This document shows, one piece after another, positions 35,203-39,061 of a DNA stretch of 42,186 nucleotides (position 1 is its first letter; each line of letters begins with the position of its first letter). The stretch is from Gammaproteobacteria bacterium (lineage in GTDB: Bacteria; Pseudomonadota; Gammaproteobacteria; DSM-19610). The position numbers and the translations under genes were made by a program. The notes beneath the pieces are model-generated. The model ran no database searches. It saw only the letters and a program-made list of their open reading frames with translations, and had not been told where the DNA came from. The stretch spans positions 1 through 42,186 of the forward strand of contig DRNU01000171.1 in NCBI GenBank assembly GCA_011374975.1. The letters are read 5' to 3'.

Positions 35203-37914
35203 ATGGCATCCGATACCGCCCCCCCGTTCATCCTGGTCGATGGCTCTTCTTATTTATACCGTGCCTTTCATGCGCTGCCCGAGCTGAGTACCTCTGACGG
35301 TCAGCAGACCGGCGCGATTTACGGTGTGCTGAACATGCTGCGCAAGCTGGTGGAGACCTACCGGCCGCAGCACATGGCGGTTGTGTTTGATGCGAAAGGC
35401 AAAACTTTCCGCGACGAGTTGTTCGAGCAGTACAAGGCCAACCGCCCGTCGATGCCGCCGGAACTGTCTTCACAGGTCGGCCCGTTGCTGGAACTGGTAC
35501 AGGCCATGGGCCTGCCGATGCTGCAGGTGCCCGGCGTGGAGGCCGACGACGTGATCGGCACACTGGCAGTCCAGGCTTCCGCAAACGGTATGAACACGGT
35601 GATCTCCACCGGTGACAAGGATCTTGCGCAGTTGGTCAACAGCCGGGTGACGCTGATCAATACCATGAATGCCAGCACCCTGGATGAGCCGGGCGTGCTG
35701 GACAAGTTCGGTGTGCGGCCGGACCAGATTATCGATTACCTGGCGCTGGTGGGCGACACCTCGGACAACATCCCCGGTATCCCCAAAGTCGGTCCCAAGA
35801 CCGCCGCCAAATGGCTCAAACAGTACGGCTCACTGGACGAGCTGGTAGCGCATGCCGACGAGATCAAGGGCAAGGTCGGCGAAAGCCTGCGCGAACACCT
35901 CGACCAGCTGGCGCTGTCGAAGCAGCTGGCGACCATCCGCTGTGATGTCGAGCTGGAGGCGAAGCCGCAGGATCTCCGGGTTCAGGCGCCGGATATCGAA
36001 CTGTTGCGCGACGGGTACCGGCGGCTGGAATTCCACAACTGGCTGAAACGCCTGGACGGTGATGGCGCAACCGATGCTGCACAGGATGCCCCGCCCGAGG
36101 CGCCCGCAACCGATTACCAGACCATTCTCACTGAAGCGCAGTTCGATGCCTGGCTGGAGCGCCTGCAACGGGCCGAGTTGTTCGGCTTTGATACAGAGAC
36201 CACCAGCCTGGATTACATGCAGGCCGAAATCGTCGGCCTGTCGTTCGCCATCGAGCCCGGTGAGGCGGCCTATCTGCCGGTGGCGCACGACTACCCGGGG
36301 GCGCCCGAACAGCTGCCGCGTGACCAGGTACTGGCGCGCCTCAAGCCGCTGCTGGAGGACCCGCGCAAGACCAAGCTGGGGCACCATCTTAAATATGATC
36401 GTAATGTACTGGCCAACCACGGGATCCGCCTGGACGGTATCGCCTACGATTCGATGCTGGAATCCTACGTGCTGGACAGTACGGCGAGCCGTCACGATCT
36501 TGATTCGTTGTGCCGGAAATACCTGGGGCATACCAACATCAAGTTTGAGGAAGTTGCGGGCAAGGGGGTAAAGCAACTGACGTTCAACCAGGTGCCGCTG
36601 GAAAGTGCCGCACCCTATGCCGCAGAAGATGCCGACATGACGTTGCGCCTGCACCAGCTGTTCTGGCCGCGCCTCTGTCAGCACGAAAAACTGAAAGCCC
36701 TGTTCGAGGAGCTGGAGCGGCCGTTATTATATGTGCTGTCCGACATGGAGCGTACCGGCGTCAAGGTCGACGTGGCGAAGCTCAGACAACAGAGCGGGGA
36801 ACTGGCCGCGCGCATGCAGGAAGTGGAAAGTGCTGCCTACGAACTGGCCGGTGAGCCGTTCAACATGGCTTCACCCAAACAGATCCAGTCCATCCTGTTC
36901 GAGCGCCAGGCATTGCCGGTGCTGGCAAAGACACCCAAGGGCGCGCCGTCCACGGCCGAGCCGGTGTTACAGGAACTGGCACTGGATTACCCGTTGCCGA
37001 AACTGATCCTGGAACACCGTTCGCTGAGCAAACTCAAATCCACGTATACCGACAAGCTGCCCGGGCAGGTCAACCCGGTGACCGGGCGCGTGCATACCTC
37101 TTACCATCAGGCCGTGGCCGCTACCGGGCGTTTGTCGTCCAGCGATCCGAATCTGCAGAACATCCCGATTCGCAGTGCCGAGGGACGGCGTATTCGCCAG
37201 GCGTTTATTGCCGAGCCGGGTTTTGAAATCCTCGCTGCTGACTATTCGCAGATCGAGTTGCGCATCATGGCGCACCTGTCGGGCGACGCCGGGCTGGTGC
37301 AGGCCTTTGCGCGCGGAGAAGACATTCACCGCGCCACCGCTGCTGAAGTTTTCGGAACCACGCCGGAGCAGGTCAGTACCGGGCAGCGGCGTTCGGCCAA
37401 GGCGATTAATTTCGGGTTGATCTACGGGATGTCGGCCTTCGGCCTGGCAAAGCAGCTGGGCATCGAGCGTGGTCGTGCGCAGGATTATGTCGACCTGTAT
37501 TTCAGGCGCTATCCCGGCGTGAAGGACTATATGGACCGCACCCGCGAACTGGCGCGCGAGCAAGGTTACGTGGAGACGCTGTTCGGGCGCCGTCTGTACC
37601 TGCCGGATATCAATGCGCGTAATGCGGCACGGCGCCAGGCGGCGGAGCGCACGGCCATTAATGCGCCGATGCAGGGTACCGCGGCGGACATCATCAAGAA
37701 AGCCATGCTCTCTGTGCACGACTGGGTTAAAACCCGCAGCAATGACGTCAGCATGATTATGCAAGTACACGATGAACTTGTGTTCGAAGTGTCACTGACA
37801 GAACGTCAGGACGTTGCTGAAGAAATACGCCAGCGCATGGAGACAGCGGCACAACTTTCCGTACCCCTGGTCGTGGACATCGGCAGCGGGAGTAACTGGG
37901 ACGAGGCACACTGA
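35203..37914 (+). CDS. polA: DNA polymerase I
   Basis: Repair and Okazaki-fragment polymerase of 903 residues. It has a 5' nuclease domain (about 1-290, with GVEADDVIGTLA and GDTSDNIPGIPKVGPKTA), an active-looking 3'-5' exonuclease (FGFDTETTS, Asp330 and Glu332), and the polymerase domain. Motif A is DYSQIELR with Asp680, and motif C is VHDELVFEV with Asp857. All three activities therefore appear intact. The spacing to the divergent LOG-family gene is 66 bases. The downstream 391 bases hold hairpins and a candidate small RNA. Confidence 0.98.
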   Translation: MASDTAPPFILVDGSSYLYRAFHALPELSTSDGQQTGAIYGVLNMLRKLVETYRPQHMAVVFDAKGKTFRDELFEQYKANRPSMPPELSSQVGPLLELVQAMGLPMLQVPGVEADDVIGTLAVQASANGMNTVISTGDKDLAQLVNSRVTLINTMNASTLDEPGVLDKFGVRPDQIIDYLALVGDTSDNIPGIPKVGPKTAAKWLKQYGSLDELVAHADEIKGKVGESLREHLDQLALSKQLATIRCDVELEAKPQDLRVQAPDIELLRDGYRRLEFHNWLKRLDGDGATDAAQDAPPEAPATDYQTILTEAQFDAWLERLQRAELFGFDTETTSLDYMQAEIVGLSFAIEPGEAAYLPVAHDYPGAPEQLPRDQVLARLKPLLEDPRKTKLGHHLKYDRNVLANHGIRLDGIAYDSMLESYVLDSTASRHDLDSLCRKYLGHTNIKFEEVAGKGVKQLTFNQVPLESAAPYAAEDADMTLRLHQLFWPRLCQHEKLKALFEELERPLLYVLSDMERTGVKVDVAKLRQQSGELAARMQEVESAAYELAGEPFNMASPKQIQSILFERQALPVLAKTPKGAPSTAEPVLQELALDYPLPKLILEHRSLSKLKSTYTDKLPGQVNPVTGRVHTSYHQAVAATGRLSSSDPNLQNIPIRSAEGRRIRQAFIAEPGFEILAADYSQIELRIMAHLSGDAGLVQAFARGEDIHRATAAEVFGTTPEQVSTGQRRSAKAINFGLIYGMSAFGLAKQLGIERGRAQDYVDLYFRRYPGVKDYMDRTRELAREQGYVETLFGRRLYLPDINARNAARRQAAERTAINAPMQGTAADIIKKAMLSVHDWVKTRSNDVSMIMQVHDELVFEVSLTERQDVAEEIRQRMETAAQLSVPLVVDIGSGSNWDEAH

Positions 37915-37943: not shown

Positions 37944-37966
37944 TCGGGTGACAGCCTGTCACCCGA
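37944..37966 (+). other. Hairpin after polA with an alternative pairing
   Basis: TCGGGTGACA (37944-37953) pairs perfectly with TGTCACCCGA (37957-37966) around GCC. A competing stem ACAGGC (37932-37937) / GCCTGT (37954-37959) uses part of the same bases. No T-run follows on the plus strand, so this is not a standard terminator and may instead be a 3'-end protecting structure. Confidence 0.5.
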
Positions 37967-38082
37967 CAGTTAAAAACAAACGTTTTGGCGCCGTAATAAC
38001 CGGACTTATTATGCGTTGATTAATTGCAGTTTATTACCATTGGTCCACTACACAACTCCGGAAAATGAACTATAGTGATAAG

Positions 38083-38297
38083 CAGTGAGCGTGAGCGATC
38101 TGTTAAAGACGAAAGAGGTAAAAACCCCCGAACAGGAAACTTTGCACATATCGAGTAGTCCAACGCCATGGAGAGCGTTGCAGGCTGATGCTCCCCGTTG
38201 ACAGGATTCTAGACGGGAATTCCTCCAACCCGGTTTCCCCAAGCCGGGTGTTCTTGACCCCGGTGCTTCCCCCCCTTGCATTCCGGGGTTTTTTTTG
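38083..38297 (+). ncRNA. Candidate small regulatory RNA at the polA-engB locus
   Basis: TATAGT at 38071-38076 (with a weak ACTACA at 18-base spacing) could start a roughly 215-base transcript that ends at a terminator with eight T. Hairpins seen: CAACGC/GCGTTG (38161-38180; loop has GGA), CCCGTT/GACGGG (38194-38217; loop has ACAGGAT), ACCCGG/CCGGGT (38228-38249; loop TTTCCCCAAG) and the terminator stem with loop TTCCCCCCCTT. An unpaired TTCCTCC lies at 38220-38226. Spot 42 in enterics and ErsA in Pseudomonas occupy this same locus. The C-rich loops suggest pairing to ribosome-binding sites; the GGA motifs could also bind CsrA/RsmA. The 5' end is uncertain, and a processed polA 3'UTR is possible. 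Confidence 0.5.
38258..38296 (+). terminator. Intrinsic terminator with a poly-C loop
   Basis: CCCCGG (38258-38263) pairs with CCGGGG (38283-38288), with an inner TGC/GCA pairing, leaving the loop TTCCCCCCCTT. Eight T follow. On the minus strand no T-run follows the stem, so it does not serve engB. It ends a plus-strand transcript. Confidence 0.75.
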
Positions 38298-38305
38298 TCC
38301 GTTTT

Positions 38306-38923
38306 TTATTCCCCTACAGAGTCTATGCTTTCCGCCAGCCAGTTGTTCAACACCAGCCGTGCCTCGTCGATGCCGGTTTTCTTCAGCGAGGAAAACAGCT
38401 GCACACTGGCATCGGGATGAAAGCCGGGCAGACGTTTGCGTACCGACAGCAGACTGCTGCTGGCCGGCCCGCGTTTCAGCTTGTCGGCCTTGGTCAGCAG
38501 AATATGTACCGGCAGGTCGACGTCGGCACACCAGTACAACATCTGCTGGTCAAAATCAGTCAGTGGGTGGCGGCAGTCCATCAACAGAATCAGGCCGCGC
38601 AGTGACTCGCGGATATGCAGGTATTCCGTCAGGCTGCGCTGCCATTTTTCCTTCATCGCCACCGGGACTTTGGCGTAGCCGTAGCCTGGCAAATCCACCA
38701 GGCGGCGGTTGTCTCCCAGGTCAAAAAAATTGATTTGCTGGGTGCGGCCGGGTGTCTTGCTGGTGCGTGCCAGCGCGCGTTGTCCACTGAGGGTGTTGAG
38801 AGCGCTGGATTTACCGGCGTTGGAGCGGCCGGCGAAAGCCACCTCGGCGCCGCTGTCGAGGGGTGCGAGCCGGGTTTCGGGGACACTGGTGAGAAAACGG
38901 GCATGGCGGAAATCGATAGTCAT
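38306..38923 (-). CDS. engB: Ribosome biogenesis GTPase EngB (YihA/YsxC)
   Basis: Essential GTPase for 50S assembly and division-related control. It has 205 residues. The G1 loop GRSNAGKSS is at about 32-40; the G2 region is [15 protein letters not shown]3 is DLPGYG and G4 is TKADK. The start at 38923 is chosen from the family N-terminus and because upstream codons are not protein-like. No Shine-Dalgarno is present; GAAAAT lies six bases before the ATG. It is divergent from cytochrome c4 and convergent with the small-RNA region, as at the polA-engB locus of other gammaproteobacteria. Confidence 0.95.
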
Positions 38924-38957
38924 GACGCTATTTTCGCACAGATCTCTTACGTTTGTG

Positions 38958-38986
38958 TTGACCGGCCGGGACCTCGCTGGTATACA
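38958..38986 (+). promoter_or_regulatory. Sigma70-type promoter for cytochrome c4
   Basis: TTGACC (38958-38963), a 17-base spacer and TATACA (38981-38986) form a good promoter about 75 bases before the cytochrome ATG. It lies just upstream of the divergent engB start. Confidence 0.7.
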
Positions 38987-39061
38987 GGTGGGCTCTTTTT
39001 TGGGTGCCGGCCCGGTTACGGTCCGGTGCGGCCCGCACAGCAATCTGGAGATCCTATCAAG

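Follow-up and report, generated by a model that had tools for sequence, protein, structure and literature searches.

Among the RNAs described at the polA locus, sX13 (RF02232) of the Xanthomonadaceae lies directly downstream of polA, on the same strand, and is a 115-nt molecule made of three stems with C-rich loops, the last of which is a terminator. According to its description, sX13 acts on mRNAs and works without Hfq, repression requires that the RNA carry C-rich motifs and the mRNA G-rich ones, the RNA is seen on northern blots, and its occurrence is restricted to the Xanthomonadaceae (PMC3771888). In Pseudomonas, ErsA (Pseudomon-1, RF01719) occupies the polA-engB gap, carries a C-rich terminator loop and acts on several mRNAs; its activation of anr needs Hfq and is predicted to involve a single-stranded, U-rich domain that separates SL1 from SL2 (PMC8575079), and its expression is reported to be sigma-22-dependent (PMC5819304). 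Spot 42 (RF00021), the product of spf, lies in the same gap in E. coli, between polA and engB (yihA), and ncS35 of Burkholderia is reported, in its own paper, to bear no sequence likeness to Spot 42. The alpha-r7 sRNAs of the alphaproteobacteria are said to lie at polA and to form three stem-loops with C-rich apices, and can be likened to the RNA studied here by that description alone (PMC3771888). The sX13 study raised the question of whether similar RNAs are encoded at the polA locus in other bacteria as well (PMC3771888). Rfam assigns neither sX13 nor ErsA to a clan, and no paper naming the two together was found in the literature searched, most subscription papers being outside its reach.

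The locus analyzed here lies in a stretch of 42,186 nucleotides (hereafter, the window), a contig belonging to an 88.8%-complete metagenome-assembled genome of 3.33 Mb from the Thiogranum/Thiohalobacter group, which we take to be sulfur-oxidising. An earlier note on this DNA had placed a candidate small RNA at positions 38083-38297 in the polA-engB gap, and this location is borne out by the annotation: polA ends at 37914 and engB, on the minus strand, at 38306. The element thus lies directly downstream of polA, as does sX13, and between polA and engB, as do ErsA and Spot 42. The features of the locus are as follows.

35203-37914, plus strand: polA (DNA polymerase I), upstream neighbor, a 903-aa open reading frame; tblastn marks the same neighbor at many related loci
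38049-38076, plus strand: putative sigma-70-type promoter TACACA-16-TATAGT, from a consensus scan
38083-38189, plus strand: predicted 5' part of the transcript, fast-evolving, its start near 38083 estimated from the -10 box
38161-38180, plus strand: small predicted hairpin with GGAG in its loop, recognizable by eye in some rows of alignment A7, weakly conserved
38192-38296, plus strand: conserved core of three hairpins, the region modelled by R1-R3
38194-38217, plus strand: hairpin 1 (CCCGUU...GACGGG) of the predicted fold, with a loop that is not C-rich in this clade and is C-rich in most other families
38220-38226, plus strand: UUCCUCC linker, unpaired in the predicted fold, complementary to Shine-Dalgarno sequences
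38228-38249, plus strand: predicted hairpin 2, with a CCCC tetraloop at 38237-38240
38257-38296, plus strand: hairpin 3, an intrinsic terminator by fold and sequence, with loop UUCCCCCCCUU and U8 at 38289-38296
38306-39043, minus strand: engB/yihA GTP-binding protein, convergent downstream neighbor, open reading frame as listed and EngB search; the first residues of the true protein are uncertain

The core, but not the element as a whole, is predicted to fold better than expected from its composition: none of 200 shuffles of the 108-nt core folded as well (z -2.96), whereas 34 of 200 did so for the full 215 nt (z -0.96). Of the four tandem hairpins that the earlier note had described, three are solid, and the fourth, the upstream one at 38161-38180, is weaker and, by eye, loosely kept. 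The element does close, as had been proposed, with an intrinsic terminator ending in U8, situated 9 nt from the engB stop. The pyrimidine motifs read as unpaired stood in part: UUCCUCC, CCCC and the C7 run of the terminator loop (38267-38277) are unpaired in the predicted fold, while the UUU and AAG that flank CCCC pair with each other. Transcription from the element's own promoter would begin near 38083 and end at the U8 terminator, yielding an RNA of approximately 210 nt, the last 105 nt of which form the three hairpins.

DNA searches across 56 genomes located the core in 18 of the 20 genomes of the same family (Thiogranum/Thiohalobacter metagenome-assembled genomes), the window's own included, so that the absence of the hairpins from close relatives, which would have spoken against an RNA gene, did not occur. 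The two family genomes without it are 82% complete (G012, with a weak match elsewhere only) and 75% complete (G013). In 17 aligned relatives the last 84 nt are 92-96% identical to the window and the 105-nt core 79-88%. Alignment of the 18 family gaps (A1) revealed that the -10 region and the greater part of the final 80 nt do not vary, in contrast to the stretch between them, which argues that promoter and RNA have been kept separately and that the gap is not inert spacer. At the promoter, positions C38070, TAT 38071-38073 and T38076 are invariant in the 18 rows and the -35 element is, by eye, poorly conserved; the conserved CTATAGT looks sigma-70-like in the consensus scan and in the alignment, and in this respect may differ from the sigma-22-dependent ErsA. 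Just behind polA, at 37945-37965, lies a 21-bp palindrome, CGGGTGACAG-C-CTGTCACCCG, that could be an operator and that by eye is absent from locus L004. Covariation within the family was not significant (both-side changes in 2 of 26 pairs, with 112 of 500 shuffles as good) and gives no verdict, because stems 2 and 3 are almost invariant.

Beyond the family, we used a covariance model trained solely on the 18 family sequences (R1) and loci picked by EngB instead of by the RNA. EngB matches were obtained in 233 of 274 gammaproteobacterial genomes, and the DNA behind engB was taken for the best 100 matches outside the family and then for the next 20; these 120 regions represent the better EngB matches, not a random draw, and a few of them are shortened by contig ends. 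R1 yielded 57 matches at E ≤ 1 in the first 100 regions, of which 47, in 45 regions, were at E ≤ 0.01, against a chance expectation of approximately 0.01 matches (E-values of the home-made models R1-R3 are rough). By hand comparison, engB is on the other strand for 45 of these 47, the exceptions being L065 and L151. Ten of the next 20 regions also presented a match at E ≤ 0.01.

The sequences recovered in this manner document compensating changes in the stems. Among 55 sequences from the family and the blind loci, 95.6% of cells were paired and 25 of 26 pairs had changed on both sides; neither value was reached by any of 500 shuffles, and sliding the partner by one column lowered pairing to approximately 56%. 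With 66 sequences, pairing stood at 95.5% and all 26 pairs presented both-side changes. Alignments A5 and A8 were fitted to the R1 structure and so lean toward it; in the structure-blind alignment (A6) of 46 sequences, which includes two sX13 rows and one ErsA row, hairpin 2 and the terminator showed both-side changes in 15 of 15 pairs, and hairpin 1 was not recovered. The model built from polA-engB gaps of relatives, suggested earlier as a check, therefore uncovered conserved hairpins with compensating stem changes and conserved loops, and the window RNA shares the three-hairpin structure and compensating changes of the group defined by R1-R3, the polA-engB C-rich-loop RNAs.

Loop composition was tabulated on alignment A5, comprising 48 sequences from outside the family (four of them from one locus) and 18 family members. 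Outside the family, loop 1 contains CCUCC or CUCCC in 42 of 48 sequences, CCC is present in loop 2 in 46 and in loop 3 in 43, and the G fraction across the three loops is 0.00-0.07. All 18 family members carry C-runs in loops 2 and 3, with CCCC in loop 2 throughout, whereas their loop 1 never contains CCUCC or CUCCC, has CCC in only two cases and shows a G fraction of 0.25. The situation is reversed in the linker between hairpins 1 and 2, which reads AAUUCCUCCA in 13 of 18 family members, with similar sequences in the others: CCUCC is found there in 18 of 18, and elsewhere CCUCC or CUCCC in 2 of 48 linkers and CCC in 15. The lack of the C-run in loop 1 and the presence of CCUCC in the linker suggest that this clade has moved the Shine-Dalgarno-like complement, presumably from loop to linker, and clades with CCUCC in the linker and not in loop 1 provide natural tests of which segment pairs.

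These observations also bear on whether the hairpins merely terminate polA transcription, and perhaps that of engB, with no separate RNA being made. The location of the terminator, 9 nt from the engB stop and between convergent genes, is what such a role would predict. One hairpin would nonetheless suffice for it, yet three have been kept with covariation; 116 nt separate the end of the conserved -10 box from the core downstream; the U-run is exclusive to the plus strand; and it is on that strand that the loops of hairpins 2 and 3 and, outside the family, of hairpin 1 are C-rich and almost devoid of G. Given in addition that sX13, at the same genomic place, has been detected by northern blotting (PMC3771888), we regard a terminator region without an RNA of its own as improbable and a genuine RNA gene in the window as very likely.

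At gathering thresholds, no Rfam family was detected in the window. The Rfam searches proposed in the earlier note for Spot 42 and ErsA returned no match for the former, in agreement with its statement that the primary sequence does not obviously resemble Spot 42 (RF00021 has no match in the gap at E ≤ 10, with a cut-off of 80 bits), and a match below cut-off for the latter (21.0 bits, E 0.075, cut-off 50); this match spans the whole ErsA model. The models for sX13 (18.3 bits, cut-off 50) and for anti-hemB (RF02837, Burkholderia RNA 7; 21.8 bits, E 0.0074, cut-off 49.5) likewise stayed below their cut-offs. Over the 274 genomes, the ErsA model gave weak matches in 41, one of them over the cut-off, and 16 of 20 kept loci lay beside engB or polA; the sX13 model matched 18 genomes, two over the cut-off, with 8 of 20 loci beside polA or engB. 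The candidacy of Spot 42 as the direct family was rejected, since RF00021, besides being negative in the gap, produced three weak matches and none over its cut-off in 274 genomes of the class, a sample of unspecified orders.

Relatedness to the known RNAs was assessed with two further models. The training set of R2 includes ten rows from loci fetched through the sX13 or ErsA models (L027, four times, L028, L030, L050, L059, L061 and L062), and R3 was rebuilt without any such locus, so that no sX13, ErsA or Spot 42 sequence entered its training; its blind loci were chosen by EngB, and some of their genomes had earlier matched the ErsA or sX13 model. The window core scored 120, 99.6 and 101 bits with R1, R2 and R3, respectively, all of which had this sequence in training. 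It is the sole match in its own genome at E ≤ 0.01 with R2, and the best R3 score elsewhere in the window (60% GC) is 8.2 bits. We took as comparators loci over the Rfam cut-offs of sX13 (L025, L026 and L198) and ErsA (L045, L206 and L212). R3 recovered all six of these left-out loci, with scores of 40.4, 33.8 and 32.5 bits (E 8.6e-8, 3.2e-6 and 6.4e-6) for sX13 and of 35.2, 32.0 and 25.9 bits (E 1.5e-6, 8.4e-6 and 2.2e-4) for ErsA. This recovery indicates that the window RNA is kin to both, even if its scores with the two Rfam models fall well short of their cut-offs. In 49 kb of E. coli DNA, R3 ranked Spot 42 first, weakly (19.2 bits, E 0.0084 for 67.7 kb), with the next match at 12.2 bits and a best score of 11.6 bits in another 49 kb of E. 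coli; R2 also had spf as its best match in the E. coli DNA searched (19.4 bits), and in both cases the terminator was aligned. The aligned Spot 42 loops, in contrast to those of the window RNA, lack a C-run.

An alternative is that the RNA arose independently in the gap and that its likeness to sX13 and ErsA reflects convergence on C-rich loops and a terminator. R1 scored individual known loci weakly (E 0.0087 and 0.011 for sX13, 0.041 for ErsA), and the sX13 Rfam model is weakly positive even in one of 14 control genomes, that of Deinobacterium chartae. Anti-hemB, which like the window RNA combines a hairpin and a GC-rich terminator with C-rich segments, is over its cut-off at three R2 places (L186, L196 and L204) where, unlike in the window, neither polA nor engB was found within approximately 1.5 kb. 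The C-rich hairpin build is hence not confined to the polA-engB gap, and part of the likeness could be convergent. Against this, the same gap, strand and three-hairpin order recur in many families, linked by intermediate sequences, and R3 lifts sX13 and ErsA to E-values between 8.6e-8 and 2.2e-4. We consequently consider an independent origin unlikely, if somewhat less so than a terminator region only, and kinship with sX13 and ErsA, at a level broader than the Rfam families, as very likely from these sequence comparisons. Of the two readings put forward in the earlier note, an undescribed relative fits better than an independent RNA, with sX13 and ErsA as the nearest known RNAs by R3 and Spot 42 much weaker.

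According to its description, sX13 has C-runs in all three loops (PMC3771888), whereas in the window RNA loops 2 and 3 are C-rich and loop 1 is not, CCUCC lies in the linker, and the core, comparable to sX13 in its three hairpins and final terminator, is preceded by a 5' part of approximately 105 nt. The U-rich single-stranded domain between SL1 and SL2 through which ErsA is predicted to pair with anr (PMC8575079) was not seen in the window RNA or in the family linker.

The 5' part shows little conservation in alignment A7, except for a G-x-G-G at 38115, 38117 and 38118 that is present in all 16 rows. Both this element (38115-38118) and the loop-borne GGAG (38167-38174) are complementary to the CCUCC linker, and self-masking of the pairing segment is possible on the basis of this complementarity. 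The same features could be read as those of a sponge, in which the C-rich segments, or the 5' GGAG/GAGG able to pair with CCUCC, would titrate a protein or another RNA in place of repressing mRNAs; the rest of the 5' part is, however, poorly conserved, and the precedent of sX13 is one of action on mRNAs, so that we rate titration as having little probability. A GTG-led frame of 38 codons, open from 38085 to a stop at 38199-38201, could make the 5' part a translated small ORF, yet its start, frame and stop are by eye not conserved in aligned relatives, and translation is considered extremely unlikely.

The element is, in our judgment, probably the gene of a trans-acting small RNA with an sX13-like mode of action, belonging to a wide gammaproteobacterial group of C-rich-loop RNAs encoded mostly between polA and engB and including sX13 and ErsA. 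Three segments, namely the CCCC tetraloop, the C7 loop of the terminator and the unpaired UUCCUCC linker, would bind G-rich stretches in or close to ribosome-binding sites, and pairing would lower the translation of several mRNAs, as it does for sX13. Since these exposed segments resemble sX13 more than ErsA, we infer translational repression through G-rich ribosome-binding sites, and by this analogy the window RNA likely blocks translation via its C-rich loops and linker. Hfq was identified in 11 of 12 other genomes of the genus searched, and not in the window's own genome, an incomplete assembly. The hfq gene, an sX13 target, was rejected as a common target: GGGG occurs in 2 of 11 leader regions, and the AAGGAG site offers, by eye, short pairing only. 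In 17 genomes of the genus, exact 12-nt complements of the linker region occur 20 times, spread over 14 of the genomes, with 12 of the matches at the RNA gene and eight elsewhere; by eye, these eight places share no gene start across the 17 genomes that would designate a conserved target. Two of the eight (in G009 and G005) fall inside the coding region of seemingly one and the same gene, and by eye the remaining six have no gene in common.

Searches with R2 revealed matches in 153 of the 274 sampled gammaproteobacterial genomes (E ≤ 0.01, all loci counted). Among 150 places listed, 101 belong to genomes with a listed engB place; 71 of these are found no farther than 1.5 kb behind engB, 67 of them on the opposite strand, and 11 more lie beside polA, for a total of 82 of 101 that is descriptive, because R2 was trained partly on such loci. 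The other 19 may be paralogues, relocated genes, contig-end cases or chance matches. In a draw of 398 genomes across the phylum, R2 matched 73, of which 28 were outside the class and weak (the strongest at E 8.7e-7 and all others at 1e-4 or worse). The window RNA seems to represent one lineage within a widespread and mostly unannotated family to which sX13 and ErsA also belong.

The case for one old C-rich-loop RNA locus across the Gammaproteobacteria is stronger where sX13 and ErsA are concerned than where Spot 42 is. More tentatively, and with slightly less than even confidence, we propose that a single polA-engB RNA with three hairpins, C-rich loops and ribosome-binding-site targets has existed since early gammaproteobacterial history, with sX13, ErsA, the window RNA and dozens of unannotated RNAs as its descendants and Spot 42 as a derived form that lost its C-loops. 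Under a single origin, regulators studied as separate lineage-specific inventions would be orthologues. If sX13, ErsA and the window RNA form one family, the question raised about the polA locus would receive a first answer, and what is learned about target choice, dependence on Hfq and stress control could be transferred across genera.

Several loci depart from the usual arrangement. In one genome, four tandem copies of a C-rich three-hairpin RNA lie between engB and polA (L027, G189:C33:13149-13885), and two or three matches are also present in L166, L173, L074 and L152. Two adjacent copies occur at L023 (G040:C49:43688-44044) and at L249 (G187:C35), with neither engB nor polA found there; the two genomes belong to one genus and carry the engB copy as well. 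A Pfam scan of ten genes beside R2 places away from polA and engB returned a single repeated neighbor, an M48 peptidase gene (3 of 10); it lies upstream of the match at L250, L276 and L278, possibly a second conserved site for a C-rich-loop RNA. The match at L194 (G673:C1:549854-549951) scores 53.8 bits with the sX13 model, which exceeds the cut-off, and neither polA nor engB was found within approximately 1.5 kb of it. At L065, L151 and L128, R1 or R2 matches behind engB lie on engB's own strand, the reverse of the usual orientation.
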